Below are positions 2,260 through 14,210 of a stretch of 14,210 nucleotides of DNA, in pieces. Location of the stretch: positions 1 through 14,210 of the forward strand of contig RXOD01005418.1 of assembly GCA_005223375.1 (NCBI GenBank), in the 5' to 3' direction. The notes beneath the pieces are model-generated. The model was not told where the DNA came from. It ran no database searches and saw only the letters and a program-made list of their open reading frames with translations. Every line of letters begins with the position of its first letter. Position 1 is the stretch's first letter. The position numbers and the translations under genes were made by a program. This DNA comes from Amoebophrya sp. AT5.2. Its lineage: Eukaryota > Sar > Dinophyceae > Syndiniales > Amoebophryaceae.

Positions 2260-4228
2260 CTAAACCGCTTCTGCCGCCGCCTCTCTCCTGTGTATTTCCA
2301 TCAGTGCTTGTCTGGTTTCCACCAGGTCTGGGTCTTCCTCCCCCCTTTCTGCCTCGCTGAGCTCCCCCTCACTACCCGCTGCCTGCGTGGCCAGGAGCTG
2401 GTAGACATCACTGCCGCTGTTGGACAGAAAGAAGTGCTGGTTCAGCGTGATCAAAAACTTCGAGTACAGGTGCATCACCAGCCGCAGGAAGAAGACTATG
2501 AAGGGGACCAGCGATGGTAAGTTGTGGGTAGTGCCTGGTATACTTAAAGTGCTATGAAAAGACTGCTGAGCCGCGGCACGCCAGCGGCAAACATAACCAC
2601 TGATCGACGCAGGGGATCGAGGTTCCCGACCTACGGCGGATTGCCCTAGCGACGGCAGAACTGCCGCCATCAAGGCGCTCTTGGAAATTTACATACCCGG
2701 CACGAGGCGAGGTCTGGGCCGCGGTGATTAGGAATGGGCCCCACTCGATGGGGGGTAGGACGAGGCAGGCGGCACTAGAGCTCGATGGGGGGGGTACGGC
2801 CTACGGGCCTACGGGTAGAGGGGGAAGCCAGAAACTTCGAGTACAGGTGCATCACCACTTAACCACTTACCGTCGCTGGTTCCGGTACATCACCATAAAG
2901 ATGAAGAGGTTGAACTTGCGCACGTACTCCGCGAAGATCATGAGCACCAGTCCCACGATCGCCGCCACGCAGAACTTGCCCATGTGCTCGTGCTTCTCAA
3001 TCGGCCTCCCATAACACGCCCGCACCCCGTACCCGTAGTAGAAGACGCAAAACGCCAACTGCACCCCGAACAGCACCCAGTAGATGTCGTGCATGGACCT
3101 TTTATTGCCCCTCAGCCCCCACAGCTCCATGCCCGTGGAGTACGAAAGGTATAAGTACTGGGCCATGACGAAAAAATCAAGAAAGAGCAAACAGAGAAAA
3201 AGAATCTGGTGGCGGGCGTAGAGGACCTCGAGGTCGCTCATCTGGTCGATCAAAACGCCGTCGGTCTGGTGCTCCATCCCAAAAAACGTGCCCGGGTTCA
3301 AGTGTCGCCGCTCGGTGGAGTGCCGCTTCTCTAGTATCCTCGCGGAGATGCGCTCAAACTCGGATCGGTAATTCTTCATGTAGGCGAGGAAACTGCTGCC
3401 GTCCGGCGCCTGCACGCCAATCAGCTTGGACTCGTCGATTACCAGCGACTTGGGATTGTTACTGGTAGTCGACCCGTCTAAGCTGCTCGGCACTTCTTGT
3501 CCACTTGAGAATTTTTGGGAGGAATTGGAATCGTTCGCATCGCCGATTGGAGAATTTGTCCCAGTTCCAACCGTCGTTCCACCAGTTGGCAACTTTGCAA
3601 CAGGAAGCGGAGCAGCCCGGTCGTTGATGGCGAGGGGCTTGTGGGGGCGGCTGTTGTGGGAAGCGGAAGTGGCACCGAGGCCGGTGGTCACAGTGCTCAC
3701 CGCAGAGTGGAAAAAATCCGCAGCGGTGGAAAGAAGTGTGCCGTCACCTGGTATTAGTTGTTTTTTTTCGCGGAAAAACACTACCCGCACGCCGAAAAAA
3801 CTCTCGCCAAAAAAATTTGTGCCAATCGACCCATAATTGCAGTTGGTCTTATAGCTAAAATCTCTAAGGAGCGCGGCAGACCACTTCTCGATAGGAGTAG
3901 ATCGATAGATTGTCGACGAATATTTGAATGGGTAGGAACCTCGCGTGGTCCCGACAGCTTCCTCTTTCTGCATGAGGTCTCGGTCTTCCTCGTTGTCGCT
4001 GTCTAACGGTTCGTTCGCAAGTTTCTCCGTGATCACTTCTTTCAGCTCGCGGCGGCTCCGGTTGTCGTTTGGGTCCTTGACGTAGGTCACGGCGCCGTAG
4101 GTCAGAATCTCGTCGTGCTCACTCGCGGAGGAATCGTGGGACGAGGAGGAGGAGGAACTTCTTCCCGAACCCGATGTAACTCGGTGCCTATGCGATTGGG
4201 TTTGTGCTCTACTTCTGCTCTCGGACAT
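2260..4228 (-). CDS. Gene A: four-helix membrane protein with long Ser-rich N-terminus, paralog of gene B
   Basis: Exon 1 is 4228-2898 and exon 2 is 2491-2260, giving 520 residues. The ATG at 4228 is the first Met in a frame that is open further upstream. Residues 1 to about 50 are Ser/His-rich and acidic, and residues to about 330 look largely disordered. The C-terminal third is the membrane part: LYARH (336-340), then hydrophobic segments at about 342-361, 382-402, 419-434 and 440-457, followed by a soluble acidic tail of about 65 residues. Gene B has the same order of motifs and segments, and its last helix guides the splice join: removing 2492-2897 gives NLFIFFLRLVMHLYSKFL, aligned without gaps to gene B's NMLVFFLRLLAYLYSKFL. 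The family is unknown to me and I assign no function. An unspliced reading would stop ten residues after the junction. Confidence 0.75.
2492..2897 (-). mobile_element. Introner-like intron of gene A with terminal inverted repeats
   Basis: On the minus strand the element begins TATGG at 2897 and ends CATA at 2497. It is flanked by ATCTT (2902-2898, exon 1) and GTCTT (2496-2492), four of five bases alike. Its ends form an inverted repeat: ACCAGCGATGGTAAGT (2507-2522, plus) and ACCAGCGACGGTAAGT (2880-2865, minus), 15 of 16 identical. Removing the element and one flank copy restores the frame and the residues seen in paralog B. The GTAAGT inside the left arm is not an in-frame GT-AG donor when paired with the only nearby acceptor, CATAG. 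Internal sequence at about 2690-2800 (plus) matches clathrin intron 7 on its minus strand. Confidence 0.75.
2832..2857. repeat. 26-nt copy of gene A exon 2 inside its own intron
   Basis: Positions 2832-2857 are identical to 2455-2480, in the same orientation. The 2455-2480 copy is coding sequence of exon 2 (residues around MHLYSKF); the 2832-2857 copy lies in the intron, a few bases inside the inverted repeat next to exon 1. Similarity falls away on both sides. Confidence 0.9.
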
Positions 4229-7719: not shown

Positions 7720-10700
7720 TCACATCATCCCCATCCCCGGGCCCATACCTGGACCCATGCCCATACCTCCCATCATCCCATTCGGCATTCCTGGGTTGCC
7801 TCCCATCATCGGGTTTCCTGCGTGTGGCGCGTTTCCGATTGCCAGATGCCCGAAGCCGCCCGGCCCCCCCATCATGCTCGGGCCAGATGGTAAGAAAGTA
7901 GCGGTATCACTTTGGCATCAGTAAAACAGCTGGCGGCGGGGTGACCATACAACGGCACCGCGCTGCGAAGATGGTGGCATCCGCCCCGGGGTCGTGTCAC
8001 CCTTCTACCCCGTGGCTTCTTCCCACCTTCCCACCCCCCGCCCAACGGTTCGTCTCTGCGAGGGTGCCAGCTCAAGTCTCGACATCGAATGGGGTCGCTC
8101 GCGTCGCGCCCCAGACACCAATCCTATCAGACCGCCCTAATCGCAAGCACCCGCCATCTGCTAAGCCCAAGCGCCTATAGCCCTAGTGGTCGCCCCCCAT
8201 CCTACTAGCCTCGAGGTTGCTTTCTAAATGGAAATCGTAATACTAGTTGCCTTACCTTACCATCTCTGTACCACCATTCCTACCCATCCCTGCTCCCATT
8301 CCGTACTCGACGAAGTCGTTGTTGGCGGATTTTTGTTGTTCCTTTTCCTTTTCGTCCTTCTCCACCTTCTTGTCCAGGCCGTCTATCCTCGCTGTGTACT
8401 GCTTCACCGACTGAATGATGTACGGCATCGCCGCATCCATAAACTGGTTCCGCCACGCCAGCTCCAGCACCACGTCGGGCTTGAGCAGCGAGTAGCACGT
8501 GAACAAAGACGCCGTGAACGATGGCTTGTCGTTCTGCGAGATGAAGTACTGGATCTGTGGAGGGTTTTGATAGAAGTTGTTGTGTTTCGGGATTTTGATT
8601 GGCCATGGCAGCTTGCTTCCACCACTGCTCGAATGGGTGGATCAAAACTTCCACAATTTGTATCAAACAATACCAGTTCCAGTGCAAGTTCCGCGTTTCC
8701 GCTATCCCGCGCTGTTTCCATGGCGTCTTTGAAGATTTTGTCGTTTTTCGAGAGTTCGATGGCCTTCGCGTACTTTTTGTTCTTTTTGTACACCAAACTC
8801 GCGATTCGCCGCATCTCAAGAAGCTCGTGGTTTTCCAACCGGCTCGCCAGGGATAGTTGGTCCAGGTTCTCGTACTCGTCGATCGACTTCCGCAGCGACT
8901 CGTAGTCCTCCGCTTCCAAGTAAAGCTCGTTCAACGCCTCGTTTACGGCCTGAATGTTGTGGCTCTGCACCTGCTTCAGGTAGTTCTGCACCAAAGGCAG
9001 GTGCCCAATCTCGCGCATCTGCGTAACCACGCGAGCGTGGTCGACCTGTGGTCGGCGATTTTTATAGGGCTTTATCTTTATTTTTGCCCAGAGTTCGACG
9101 TGGTCCATGCGAATAGCCATAGGAAGACCGCCCTATAAATGCCTCCGTCGGTCTGCCTTATCGCGTATATAAGCCGACTATTCGCGTGCCCGCGCGGCTG
9201 TTTCGCTACCCTCGCCAACTGGTCACAGAGCAAAGTACTTCTTCCAACATGATAGCGCCAGACAAATGAACCGCAAATCGCCTCAATCATCATAGCCGAA
9301 TTCTTATTCTTCTATAAGTAAATCTGTACCTTGCTCTCGATCGTTTTCATGAGTGCGTCCAGCAACAAAGGCTGTTCTTCGATGTAGAAGGTGATCGCTC
9401 GGTAGAGCAGTTCCGTGTTGGCCACTTTTTGCATGACGAACAAGAACTGGTCGTGCGAGAAGGCCACCGGCGAGTGCTGCATCATACAGTTCGCCGCCGA
9501 GTCGTACTCGTCGTAGTGCGTGTACAGGTGCACCGCCTCTTCCCAGTGGTTGTGCCGCTCGCAGGCGCGGATCACCTTCGGGATGTTGCACTTCTGCGTG
9601 TTCAGCTTGATTATGCCGCGACCAGATGGTAAGTGGTAGAAAAGCCACCATGGTTTTGTGCAACCCCCTACGGCTAAAAATGAATCACACCCCTGGGCAG
9701 CGTTATATTAATATTTTACCCAGTTGTGCTTTCAGGCCCTTTCCCCATGGCAGTCAGAGGCCATTTCCGCTACATAGCCTCTCCCGACCCCCCGTCGCTG
9801 TACCCCCCATCACCTACCCCGCGCCCCCATATAGTACCCCCTACCCCCCATCGAATGGCCGGCCCATTTCTTAGAAAAACGCCCCCGACCCCTTCGCGCC
9901 GGGTTGTATCACCTTCGGGATGCTGCACTTCTGCGTGCTTACCATAGGTACCCACTTACCATCGGATCTGGTCCGGTCATATTGATGAAGTCCATCAGCT
10001 TCTCCGGCTTGTATTTCGAGTACAGAATCGCGAGTTCCGTGTACATGCCCACGTGCGCGCGCTCCGCGGAGAGCCCCGCGTCCAGCAGCTCGATCAGCTC
10101 CTCGGCGTACCCGTGCTTTTCGTACTGCGCAATCAACTCCTCCAAGTGGTCCGGGTGCACAATAATCGCCATCCCGGCGACGGAAGCGCAGCGGAACTCC
10201 TTGGCGGCGACGCAGGCGACTGAGACCTCCTTCCACACCTTCGGGTTGTTGGCCTTCTTAGCCGCCTCCACGGCCTGCGTATATTCCTCCAGCTTCACGT
10301 GACAGGAAGCGAGCGTCTATGGAAGAGGGAGGAAATTTGCCCCTGATGGAAATGGATTTTTCCGAACGCGATTTGGGACGTAGAGTAAGAAAGTCTACTC
10401 GCGAAATCTACGTATGACCCTGCCGCACCATGAGGGAGTCGCTGATAGATTAATTTCCTAGGGGTGTCCACGTGCCAAAGCCAGCCATGGAACGCCGCAT
10501 ACAGTATGGGGGAAAGTTTCTGCCATAGGTCTCGCTCTAATCTCAGGGCCCCTGCCGATCGAGGAAGTTCCCCGATTACGGTCGACAGCTAGCTAATGCC
10601 GATAGACTCCCGAAACCCCGACCGCCTCCCCAAAACTCTACAACTTGAGAAAGTATGTATTAGTGGGAACCAAATAAATTAATAGGGGCAAATTTCCAAT

Positions 10701-13700
10701 TCGCCCTAGCTTCGCGTTGTTGGAGATCGACTGGAACAACAACTTCGCCGCCTTGAAGTTTTGCTCGCCGAAGAGCCGGTCGCCGATCCCCTGACAGTTC
10801 GCCGTGTTCGTCCCGGAGACGAACTCCTCCAAATCAACTAAATTGTCGGTCTTCGCGTAGCTGTAGACGAGCTCGGAGTCGAGGTGCTGGTCCTTCTGCT
10901 TGGTCCGCGCCATCTTTAAATAGGTGACCAAGTCCTCGTATTTTCCCTCCCGCTCGGCGACGGAAATCACCTCCGCGTAGTCCGAAGCGTCCTGCGCCTT
11001 GATGTACGAATCAATCGCGTCCGCGACGGCACCTGTTTGGGGAGGGAGGTGGGTGTGGAGACTTGGTATATTTGGCGATGGATCATGGTGCGTTGCTGAG
11101 AGGTAGTTCTCACTGTATTTACAAGTATGCTCCGGCTTGTTCTCGATGGGGGAAGGCGCGGGGGGAGAGGTCAAGAACGCGCGCACAAAACCATCTAGGT
11201 AAAGCTACTTACTAAGCTATGTTGAGCAACATGTTTCTTCCATCGGCCAAGCACTAGATTGAATTGCACTTGCAAATATCAGGCGGAAGTATCGTATAGC
11301 CTCTTAGGCACCTGCTGCGAGGTATGCCTTTCCGAGTTTGGACCAGACAACTCCTTCGTTGACCCTTGCAGCGTACTCGCTCGCCCGTTCCAGGGATTCA
11401 ATGTTGAGCAGCAGCACGTCCATCGCCTCCGGGTGCATGTCCTGCTTCTTGTAAATCACAAAAGCCTCCTCGTACAGCTTGTACTCGGGACCGAGCGCCA
11501 CCTTCGCAATCTCGGGCCCGTTGTAGCACGTCAGCCGGTTGATGTAGTCCATCACACGGGATTTGGCTTAGAGAGCGGAGCCATAGAGGACAAAAAATTG
11601 GGAGTGCTTCGGTTTGGATTGGTTTGATATTGATTTGCCGATTGCGGTTCCTAGATGAGGACAAAAGGCAGCATCGGTGATCTTGATCTCTTGCGGGAGG
11701 AGACAGCGCATGACCCACCGCCATCGAAGCCTAGAGAGCTGTAGACCGGGCGCCGGATGGGGGAAGGCTCAGGACAGGAAGGATCGGCAGAACCAGGACC
11801 ACGCCGCTACCCCGCATACCTGAGACTCTCAAGCACCGCCCAACCATAGGTAGCGAAGTCCGTGAGTGAATGCTGCCTGCGCAAACGCAATGGCTCGCGT
11901 AGCTAGCACTTAGTACAATCGAATGGTCACAATTAAAAATTCCAAAAGCCCATTAATCTGCATCCGATAGCTCATTTATTTTGTCCTCCTCCATTTTCCT
12001 AATTGTCCGCGCGGATGGCTGTGAGTATGAGGAGGTTCTGGAGGTTGCGGGCGTTGGCGAACTCCGACCTGTGAAGCACGATTTTTTCTAGGAGCTCGAT
12101 CAGTTCACTGTGGAGTTCCGCGGAGATGAAGGCCTTCACCGTCACGGAAACCTCGTCCGGGTTGGTGCATTCGGGTAAAGCGCTGCTGATGGTCTGGTCG
12201 ATGGTCTTCCGCCGGTACTCGTTCTCCGGATCGAGGACCGTAGCCCAAAGTTCTGGCGACTTTCGCTCCACCAGGTACTTCGCCTGGAGCTTGAACAAGC
12301 CATTCTTGTTCGTGGTTGCTACCAGCGGCTCGTCGCACTGGCCCCAGGCCCGCTTGTACGCCGTGTACGCCAAATGCGGGTCCCGCTCCTCGCAGAACTT
12401 GCCCACCACCAGCGAATCGTAGTACTGGTTGTTTTTCAAAAAGGTCTCCGGGTCTCTCTCCTTAGAGGGGTGAAAAACCCATTTTTGGCGGTCCATTATC
12501 GGCCAGATAGATGATTCGCCTATTGCCGAGACCGAATACGATGATGGAAATACGAGGATGGAAATAGAAGACAGCACAGGAAAATGAGCCGACTCATTCT
12601 TGTCAGACCCCCTGCCCGTCGCTTTGCGGCGCTAGCTCCCTCCCTAGCAGTACCGAGCACAATGTATGAGACCAAATGCGAGACCATACACAAGACAAAA
12701 TACGCGACCAAATACGAGACAGCACAAGCCACCCACTGCCCACATCATACCAGACCAACTAACAGACGAACTACAAGCCCGCCACCACCAGAACACTGCC
12801 CAGGAAAATGGGTTGATCCCCTCCTTAATCCCCGTTTCGATGCAGATCATGGCCAGCGCGTTGTGCAGCGGCTTCTCCTGGTTCCCCTCGCTCACGCGCG
12901 CCTCGAGCCACGGCTGCAATAATCTCAACCTATTCCTCTTCTCGCACTCGGAGACGAGGGATTCCACGGGACAGGCGGAGCGGACGGCCTGGAGCAACTG
13001 CTTGATGAAGTCCTCGGAACAATCCAGATCGATCAGCGTGCCAACGAACTTGGGAGTGTTCAGAGGATTCACCTTCACCACGTACACCTCGATGTACTTC
13101 AGCAGCTGGTTGTTGTACCTGGGGGGGCGATGGTTGGGGGATTGCGATTGGAATGGGGGATGGTTTGAATTGGCCAATGGGGGAGTGTTTGAATTGGAAT
13201 TTCAGCGAGGTGAGCGGGTGAGGGGTGAGCAGAGAGAGAAAGAAAAGGGTATGATTGGTTCAATCCAATGTCACGAAGCTAAGCAACTGCACGCCCCAAT
13301 TTTCTAGGTGCGGCAGTTAAGAAACTTCGCATTTCGTGTGCGAGCCCGCGCTAGCCGGGAAAACAGGCAGAAAGCTGCGATACTGTTCCCGGCTGACGGT
13401 TAAAGTGGCAGAAACTCGCAATGTGGTATCGCACTGGAACAAACTGCAACGGAAAAATCAATACAAGTAGGTCGCCAGCTCCTCGATGAATCCGTGGAGG
13501 TCGCAAACGTAGATCAGTGGTCGCGGGTCCGGCAGCTTCTCCCCCTTCAGAAAGTCTTTTACCTGTCGTTCGTCCGATATTAAACGGATGAGTCTGCTAA
13601 ATACGTCGACAACGAATTACCAATTTCGACAAGCGGAACCTAGGCTCTATATCAAATAACCAAACCGGACATGATATAAAAACCGATGGTCTACTAAAAC

Positions 13701-13891
13701 TCCTAGCTGATCGCTATAGGTTAAACTTAAATCCGTACCTTCACTGGATCGTAGCTTTTTGGGTTGTCTTTGAGCACTCGCTCCACCTCCTGTACGTTGC
13801 CCAAGCGGCTGGCCGCCTGGATGTACTTGAAGATGACGTCGGGCTGGCCCTCCCCGATCTGGCTTGAGATCGCTCCAACGAAGCAGATTAC
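7720..13891 (-). CDS. CLTC-like: Clathrin heavy chain, C-terminal part (11 exons, 5' end outside the window)
   Basis: Exons in order: about 13891-13739, 13562-13465, 13118-12824, 12460-12003, 11562-11312, 11032-10708, 10311-9982, 9606-9330, 9045-8674, 8554-8283, 7867-7720. Exons 2-11 join into 942 codons including TGA at 7722-7720, about 990 residues in view of a protein usually near 1,650-1,700. Clathrin heavy chain forms the legs of the triskelion coat for endocytic and Golgi vesicles. Family landmarks appear in order: [187 protein letters not shown] and [19 protein letters not shown] charged trimerisation region and a Gly/Met-rich tail follow. KRAWGQCD carries two extra residues (AW) relative to animal and plant RGQCD. 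The visible part covers the leg repeats and hub; the N-terminal propeller is outside. Confidence 0.95.
7868..8282 (-). mobile_element. Clathrin intron 10, introner-like
   Basis: GATGGG lies at both edges (8288-8283 in exon 10, 7873-7868 before exon 11). The ends carry inverted GATGGTAAG motifs: GAGATGGTAAGG (8266-8255, minus) and CCAGATGGTAAG (7883-7894, plus). Removing one repeat copy with the element joins GAGMG to GPGGFG in frame, giving a Gly/Met/Pro-rich tail that ends at TGA 7722-7720. Using the GTAAGG as donor with the nearest AG (GAG before CATGATGG) puts exon 11 out of frame. Without splicing the protein would end at a TAA just inside the intron. Confidence 0.7.
8555..8673 (-). other. 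Clathrin intron 9, canonical GT-AG, 119 nt
   Basis: The donor is CTG|GTATTG and the acceptor CCACAG|ATC. The join LALEL + IQYFI matches the family spacing (ELLQWF in human). I see no terminal inverted repeat. Confidence 0.9.
9046..9329 (-). other. Clathrin intron 8, canonical GT-AG, 284 nt
   Basis: The donor is AAG|GTACAG and the acceptor CCACAG|GTC. The join ESK + VDHAR matches the family RLDHTR site. The exon ends share only AGGT, a normal proto-splice context. Confidence 0.9.
9607..9981 (-). mobile_element. Clathrin intron 7, introner-like, same family as the gene A intron
   Basis: ATCAA is present at both edges (9986-9982 in exon 7, 9611-9607 before exon 8). On the minus strand the element begins TATG (9981) and ends CATA (9612). 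The ends are inverted repeats: ACCAGATCCGATGGTAAGT (9972-9954, minus) and ACCAGATGGTAAGTGG (9621-9636, plus), with a four-base insertion in one arm. Removal with one ATCAA gives [15 protein letters not shown], the length of plant LMEHIKLFSTRLNIP. The GTAAGT in the arm could instead pair with ATCAAG|CTG in frame, but that adds NMTGPDPM in place of the K. Confidence 0.8.
9908..9937. repeat. 30-nt copy of clathrin exon 8 inside intron 7
   Basis: Positions 9908-9937 match 9571-9600 at 29 of 30 bases, same orientation. The 9571-9600 copy is coding (around [10 protein letters not shown]). The other copy sits in the intron, just inside the inverted repeat next to exon 7. Intron A shows the same arrangement. 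Confidence 0.9.
10312..10707 (-). mobile_element. Clathrin intron 6, introner-like with a perfect 14-bp inverted repeat
   Basis: GGAAATTTGCCCCT occurs on the plus strand at 10331-10344 and on the minus strand at 10697-10684, close to both ends. Exon 6 ends GAAGCT (10713-10708), and GACGCT (10317-10312) precedes exon 7, five of six bases alike. Removing the element with one copy joins [15 protein letters not shown], the length of plant NWAKLAVTLVKLQQF. An AG acceptor (CATAG|ACG) would add one Thr and would need a CT donor. Confidence 0.75.
11033..11311 (-). other. Clathrin intron 5, GT-AG with an 8-bp direct repeat
   Basis: The donor is GCAG|GTGCC and the acceptor ACAG|GTGCC, so CAGGTGCC is repeated at both edges. 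The join [13 protein letters not shown] fits the family. I see no clear inverted repeat. It may be an older insertion whose duplicated target supplied both splice signals. Confidence 0.8.
11563..12002 (-). mobile_element. Clathrin intron 4, probable introner-like element
   Basis: Imperfect inverted ends start TTAG on each side and include a shared GAGGACAAAA (11586-11595 plus; 11988-11979 minus). Exon 4 ends GCGGACAA, and GCCAA precedes exon 5, so only CAA is repeated. Joining there gives [14 protein letters not shown], the length of plant [14 protein letters not shown]. The alternative acceptor CTAAG|CC would need an AT donor. Ends are uncertain by a few bases. Confidence 0.6.
12461..12823 (-). 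mobile_element. Clathrin intron 3, introner-like, GA-AG ends possible
   Basis: TAAGGAG is repeated at the edges (12827-12821 and 12464-12458). Inverted ends follow: GGGGATCAACCCATTTT (from about 12819, minus) and GGGGTGAAAAACCCATTTTT (from about 12467, plus). Splicing as AAG|GAGGGG...CTAAG|GAG gives [16 protein letters not shown] donors are known in dinoflagellates. The loop is about three residues longer than in animals and plants. Confidence 0.7.
12668..12727. repeat. Degenerate 12-bp tandem repeat, five units, in clathrin intron 3
   Basis: Five successive 12-base units resemble GAGACCAAATAC. They lie inside the intron and have no coding role I can see. Confidence 0.6.
13119..13464 (-). 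other. Clathrin intron 2, canonical GT-AG, 346 nt
   Basis: The donor is TACTT|GTATTG and the acceptor CCCCAG|GTAC. The join [13 protein letters not shown] matches plant HYLYTNNMLRYIE in length. I see no inverted ends. Confidence 0.9.
13563..13738 (-). other. Clathrin intron 1 of those visible, canonical GT-AG, 176 nt
   Basis: The donor is AAG|GTACGG and the acceptor CGACAG|GTA. The join [15 protein letters not shown] matches human YDPERVKNFLKEAKL without gaps. Confidence 0.9.
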
Positions 13892-14210
13892 AGGTCAGAA
13901 CAATGCATCTGTTTACACATCTTTTAAAAACCAGACGTCACGAGCGACCCGATGTGGTCTGGGATCCATGCCGCTCGATTGCCAGGAGGCGTTCGCGTCC
14001 GGCATCGGGGGGGAAAGGTGTCGGGGAACCTGGAGATGAGCCATTCTAAAGTGGAGGGGGGAGATCATGCAACAGCTGGAGAGATCCAAGCAGAACGCGA
14101 AGGAGGAAACAAGACCAGGAATCGACACCAGGACGGAAAGGCTACAGGACCCACAGCGAGGCGGCGCCCTTGCTTCCAGAAGCACATGGCTCAGCAGGGT
14201 GCCAAGGCCA
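13892..14210. other. Probable intron upstream of the first visible clathrin exon
   Basis: The clathrin frame meets TGA at about 13897-13895. The exon must start downstream of it, but no AG acceptor lies between that stop and the conserved FVGAISS stretch, so this may be another non-canonical junction. A minus-strand ORF at 13913-14185 has no clathrin similarity that I can see. I find no upstream exon before the right edge. Confidence 0.4.

Follow-up and report, generated by a model that had tools for sequence, protein, structure and literature searches.

The clathrin heavy chain gene on the 14,210-base contig analysed here (the whole contig, hereafter the window) contains two kinds of introns, ordinary GT-AG introns and introns with the structure of short mobile elements. 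We consider it highly likely that introns 3, 4, 6 and 7, and probably a truncated intron 0, are introners of the Amoebophrya kind that resemble miniature inverted-repeat transposable elements (MITEs) and are removed as the element plus one copy of its target duplication, by means of a signal located in the terminal inverted repeats. Under this proposal, a non-autonomous DNA-transposon copy would insert into a coding exon and generate a 5-bp target site duplication, and the transcript would subsequently lose the element with one copy of the duplication, leaving the protein unchanged. The removal signal would be the terminal inverted repeats themselves (a potential stem together with end motifs, for instance TTAAGG...CTCTAA or TATGG...CCATA), and neither the exon nor GT-AG dinucleotides.

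The window carries the C-terminal part of the gene on its minus strand (7720..13887, exons and introns, stop codon at 7720-7722) and the N-terminal part falls past the contig end. Clathrin chains from the PDB matched the gene product with E=0. In a protein search, the 7990 candidates with the most words in common with the query were scored and at least 120 matches were listed; among these 120, the best full-length proteins were 66-69% identical, with dinoflagellates among the named ones, and no near-identical clathrin was present. An alignment and a quick tree were built from 65 rows, namely the window and the top 64 of these 120 matches, and placed the window on a long branch just outside a group of 37 rows including Polarella and Effrenium (support 86/88). 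In the assembly searched (50.7 Mb, 2,759 contigs), the dinoflagellate spliced leader was found at 33 places, 18 of which were exact and the others one mismatch away, against none for the reversed control. These spliced leader copies and the position in the clathrin tree make it very probable that the host belongs to an early branch of the dinoflagellates.

Introns were numbered in gene order. When introns 1, 2, 5, 8 and 9 were taken out at GT-AG borders and introns 3, 4, 6 and 7 as the element plus one 5-bp repeat, the gene read through 940 codons with no stop. All four elements are given here in the sense of the gene, on the minus strand. The intron 3 element, of family A, spans 12462..12828 and reads TTAAGG...CTCTAA between duplications at 12457-12461 and 12829-12833 that match at four of five positions (TCTCC/TCCCC on the plus strand). 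The intron 4 element (11568..12002) reads TTAGG...CTCTAA, with duplications at 11563-11567 and 12003-12007, and the intron 6 element (10318..10708) reads TAGGG...CCATA, its other end beginning TATGG, with duplications at 10313-10317 and 10709-10713; both pairs again match at four of five positions (GACAA/GCCAA and GAAGC/GACGC respectively). The intron 7 element, of family C, spans 9612..9981, reads TATGACCGGACCAG...GCATA and is bordered by the exact duplication ATCAA/ATCAA at 9607-9611 and 9982-9986. Compared to shuffled ends, the inverted ends of introns 3, 4, 6 and 7 had z values of -4.8, -2.0, -5.8 and -4.4. A longer repeat, AAGGAG, was tried for intron 3 and rejected, as it added two residues with respect to the homologues when the element edge with the 5-bp repeat added none. 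At the junctions of all four elements, 64 of the 64 homologue rows were free of gaps within 8 residues, and the alignment with PDB clathrin likewise showed no gap there. Intron 0 (13888..14210, minus strand), of the element type, is truncated by the contig end; it has the plus-strand start TTACAGG and a single 5-bp flank, GCAGA, at 13883-13887. It matched five loci at 80-92% identity, four of which reach and carry the TTACAGG start, the fifth stopping short of it.

Copies of the intron 3 element found elsewhere start and stop at identical bases, in a whole-window copy search in which 39 of 399 candidates were scored and copy numbers are therefore lower bounds. Among 15 full family A copies that were aligned, 13 had an exact 5-bp duplication directly outside TTA...TAA, the window copy matching at four of five positions. 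The second family, C, to which intron 7 belongs, has ends like TATGGCGGGACCAGATGGTAAGTGG, which pair over about 25 nt, and likewise a 5-bp duplication. The original prediction had proposed to search the genome for the end repeats, and those of introns 3 and 7 were indeed found: 18 bases taken from the family A end occurred at 180 places with at most two mismatches (three for the reversed control) and 12 bases from the family C end at 154 places (two for the control). The intron 4 element had only its self-match in the copy search, and the intron 6 element showed only a partial likeness to elements in loci L079 and L080. Family A copies were 67-85% identical to the intron 3 element (27 of 44 loci, with matches of at least 300 bases). 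This range, together with the mismatches in three of the four duplications and the lone self-match of intron 4, speaks against the earlier suggestion that the insertions are recent. The flanks of family A were coding-like in 54 of 66 windows, in keeping with a residence in exons; in the first 10 kb of four contigs, this applied to 197 of 440 windows. A further TTA-type family was noticed at L078 (210-556) and L053 (1662-2060), with ends TTA(A/C)GGGTTGAA... and ...TCAACCTCTAA and exact 5-bp duplications.

Frame restoration was followed at other insertion sites with a detector demanding inverted ends and a 5-bp duplication in which one mismatch was tolerated. It returned 57 candidate elements in 259 kb and missed the intron 4 element. 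For 40 candidates the frame could be read clearly on either side. In 37 of these both sides were coded on the same strand, and all 37 lay in one frame once the element and one duplication were subtracted. One of them, L004, is probably no element, an open frame running through it, and its removal leaves 36 of 36 in frame. Five of 16 TTA-type copies had an in-frame TAA at either edge, one at the opening bases and one formed by the final three, and five of 20 TA-type copies had a stop at one edge, so that no edge bases can remain in the message at these places. Frame restoration, 5-bp duplications and copies at other sites give good support to an element origin, with excision at the element edge, for the families of introns 3 and 7. 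It is extremely improbable that the element-bearing gene copies are dead, or that the assembly mixes strains, and that nothing is removed: the 940 codons outside the introns contain no stop, the 64 homologues are free of gaps at the element junctions and the same pattern is observed at 36 insertion sites.

The length of the duplication was constant. When inverted-end pairs were collected in 209 kb without the duplication criterion, 16 of the 59 pairs had an exact 5-bp duplication (0.1 expected), whereas exact duplications of length 3 occurred once and those of lengths 4 and 6-10 were absent. Among 44 in-frame elements, from clear and unclear candidates, 19 started with TTA followed by two purines, 19 with TAT and six otherwise (four TAG, one TTACG and one TTTGT, the latter being the doubtful L004). 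The 5' ends of all 20 in-frame TTA-type elements were TTAAG, TTACG or TTAGG, and their 3' ends CTCTAA or TTCTAA. The presence of both end types in one genome with an equal duplication length of 5 bp suggests that one integration machinery stands behind both.

Insertion phases of the 44 in-frame elements were spread as 18, 14 and 12, a phase bias in a smaller set having evened out. The bases of the duplication tracked the codon-position background (one of 20 tests below 0.05, uncorrected), and an excess of G at the first duplication base (14/28), which would yield AG at the intron end, was given up when it came to 18/44 in the larger set and was not significant. Since all phases are used and the duplication bases stay at background, neither exon nor duplication appears to provide a visible splice motif, and no GT or AG rule could be discerned; a 5-bp duplication devoid of splice consensus would take the exon out as the source of the signal.

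The element ends, in turn, displayed an orientation rule. Family A had one orientation relative to the gene at 33 of 44 loci, in agreement with the window copy, and was reversed at none (two loci were mixed and nine uncalled). The two ends of a family C element are almost alike, and of 15 linked elements of this family eight lay one way and seven the other; not one of the 50 pairwise links was inconsistent. The intron 6 element had the same orientation as both of its linked relatives. A fixed family A beside a two-way family C suggests that the rule goes with the element ends, and the one-way orientation of family A points to the transcript as the level of removal. Folding of the elements gave at least 12 end pairs in 32 of 36 cases, as compared to 10 of 36 with shuffled ends. 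Judged from sequence, it is simplest to assume that the signal resides in the ends and that the elements are removed at the level of the transcript, the ends and the stem being the parts that would be recognised in the RNA.

These orientation data also bear on the possibility that the elements are cut from DNA by a programmed elimination comparable to that of the internal eliminated sequences (IESs) of ciliates, the assembly then representing an unprocessed nucleus. Ciliate IESs have a TA duplication and are excised at the DNA level independently of the direction of transcription. IESs, too, end in inverted repeats, are flanked by short duplications and are excised exactly, and the absence of an orientation preference in family C (8 to 7) would agree with such a process. 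However, DNA elimination should ignore the direction of transcription, yet family A is direction-dependent, and the duplication is 5 bp long, not TA alone. Furthermore, no such dinoflagellate system was named in the titles and abstract openings of the papers listed by a literature search on the subject. We regard DNA elimination as very improbable.

Removal from the transcript could be taken one step further. The inverted ends alone may constitute a portable and self-sufficient splicing signal, of which a near-symmetric end could serve as 5' or 3' border in either direction and an asymmetric one in one direction only, exon sequence, GT and AG being unneeded; the elements would then be processed by a route reading their ends, possibly distinct from the standard spliceosome pathway. 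This extended proposal is tentative, and we hold it to be rather doubtful. Of the spliceosomal small nuclear RNAs (snRNAs), U1 and U2 were both not found in the genome search, and two U6 genes with an intact ACAGAGA box were present in L080 and L081; a loss of U1 was dropped as an argument, its absence being uninformative since U2 was not found either.

Several observations weigh against transcript-level removal of elements at their edges. Clathrin and the long open frames in the fetched loci served to train the codon-usage model, which is therefore not independent of the tested loci; these were no random sample and were mostly chosen for their likeness to families A and C; their counts accordingly tell about element behaviour and not about frequency. 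On the reversed sequence, the detector gave nine detections versus 40, in an earlier and smaller set. Three of the 40 clear candidates had coding strands opposite on the two sides, and the 17 unclear ones comprised seven in frame, three shifted by two and seven with opposite strands. L021, one of the 15 full family A copies, is devoid of a duplication, and the cut point of removal is ambiguous across the 5 bp of the duplication. Computed end-pairing was equal in both orientations for the six family A elements folded, so that pairing alone is not the whole signal; stem strength was accordingly rejected as the source of the orientation rule, sense and antisense being equal in these six, in 17 family C and in five other elements. 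Finally, some in-frame GT-AG pair existed in the outer 120 nt of 24 of the 36 copies, the smallest addition being 16 residues, and the 5' end of family C carries a strong donor, ATG|GTAAGT. This donor with the first AG downstream was in frame in seven of 15 cases (five expected; two of 17 copies lacked the donor), and in intron 7 it gave in-frame solutions of +2, +3, -3 and +7 residues (the four displayed of seven).

The last of these points would be expected if the elements were spliced at ordinary GT-AG sites inside or just outside of them, with few residues altered, as has been reported for the introners of Aureococcus. In the range tried, in-frame GT-AG choices numbered 18, 7 and 7 for introns 3, 6 and 7, and none existed for intron 4. 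With each of these choices, residues would be exchanged, gained or lost, although the protein is conserved and all 64 homologues are gap-free at these places. Moreover, 12 of the 36 copies had no stop-free in-frame GT-AG pair within their outer 120 nt, and the first-AG result is near chance. The findings on stops, frame and added residues make the use of GT-AG less likely, although it may occur in single cases, and GT-AG splicing as a general explanation is very improbable. Removal of the element with one duplication copy, at borders that would differ from GT-AG, remains the interpretation that we favour for introns 3, 4, 6 and 7, the argument for these borders being drawn from frame and homology.

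The remaining introns of the gene model, all on the minus strand, are of the ordinary type: intron 1 (13563..13738), intron 2 (13119..13464), intron 5 (11033..11311), intron 8 (9046..9329) and intron 9 (8555..8673). Their assignment to GT-AG was confirmed, no residue being changed in the gene model. Their junctions were gap-free in 64/64 rows for introns 5 and 8, 61/63 for intron 9 and 53/55 for intron 2, and in only 1/53 for intron 1, close to which the homologue displayed, from Polarella, has a one-residue gap. They had also been described as lacking a clear inverted repeat. This is correct for four of the five, whose 40-nt end duplexes resembled shuffled ends (z -1.0 to 0.5), and less so for intron 9 (z -2.5). 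Intron 5 has an 8-bp direct repeat, CAGGTGCC, across its borders and may be an old insertion too; no copy of it was detected elsewhere in the copy search that included it.

Intron 10 had been grouped with introns 3, 4, 6 and 7, as an insertion excised at its element edge, in frame with one repeat copy, and lacking an in-frame GT-AG solution compatible with the homologues. Homology lends good support to these claims for introns 3, 4, 6 and 7, but not for intron 10, which lies in a non-conserved Met/Gly-rich tail. Read as GT-AG (7877..8255, minus strand), it has an in-frame solution from 8255 to 7877, GTAAG|GTAAGG ... CCCGAG|C in the gene sense, leading into the Met/Gly-rich tail and the stop codon, and many weak but no convincing candidates for a 5-bp duplication were found at its borders. 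Because of this clean solution and of the unconvincing duplication, intron 10 should not be counted as non-canonical, its type being unproven. It has inverted ends like those of family C and resembles a family C element in which a GT-AG pair lies close to the element ends, and it may be an element-type intron turned canonical. A family C element lies in the neighbouring minus-strand gene (2497..2897, minus strand), with duplications AAGAC/AAGAT on the plus strand, and its removal places both sides of that gene in one frame. Neither this element nor intron 0 had been included in the original prediction. The window (13888-14210) and the contigs of L022, L035 and L036 end inside element copies, and the assembly may break at introners.

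The data from the window may narrow down the likely place of the cutting signal, and the orientation contrast together with the neutral duplication makes the mechanism testable by ordinary reporter constructs. The existence of introners without GT-AG borders in genes of mixed intron types is known in kind from Amoebophrya. As described in the text of Farhat et al. 2021 (PMC7789003), strains A25 and A120 have non-canonical introns with inverted repeats of 8-20 nt at their ends and direct repeats of 3-5 nt over their boundaries, the borders having been determined by RNA-seq; ends start with TTA and two purines in A25 and with TAT in A120, and both intron types occur within genes. These introners form many families repeated in the genome, with hairpin potential, U1 snRNA was not found, and the authors state that their own data rule out a general mobilisation by transposase. 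The introns described here share with them the inverted ends, the direct repeats (here 5 bp), the multiplicity of families, the hairpin potential, the gene of mixed introns and both start types, and are similarly repeated in the genome in the case of introns 0, 3 and 7, weakly for intron 6 and not for intron 4. In contrast to A25 and A120 as described in that text, both end types occur here in one genome and in one gene with a 5-bp duplication in each case, the family C ends are longer and show pairing across some 25 nt, and the orientation of the asymmetric family is fixed; the term orientation refers there to gene order only. In the passages of Farhat et al. 2021 and of the other Amoebophrya and introner literature covered, neither the joint occurrence of the two end types within a gene nor a duplication fixed at 5 bp nor an orientation rule depending on end symmetry was found.

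According to Gozashti et al. 2022 (PMC9860276), introners of Symbiodinium, Chrysochromulina, Aureococcus and others have features of DNA transposons, target duplications and a role in mass intron gain, and use GT (rarely GC or GA) donors and AG acceptors supplied by the element or by the duplication. Here, by contrast, the aligned protein would not be preserved by any GT-AG choice at introns 3, 4, 6 and 7 (GT donors only). The nonconventional introns of euglenids (Milanowski et al. 2016, PMC4770533) are described as having variable borders, ends joined by base pairing, direct repeats and a proposed MITE origin. The present introns resemble them in variable borders, ends that may pair, direct repeats and coexistence with conventional introns, whereas euglenids are another lineage and a conserved paired motif at +4 to +6 is a euglenid feature. 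Few genomes depart from the GT-AG rule on a large scale. Amoebophrya ex Karlodinium veneficum, as well as AT5 as cited in the same source (PMC12005148), are reported to have mainly GT-AG genomes; if the host of the window is a syndinian, these canonical-intron Amoebophrya belong to the same broad lineage.

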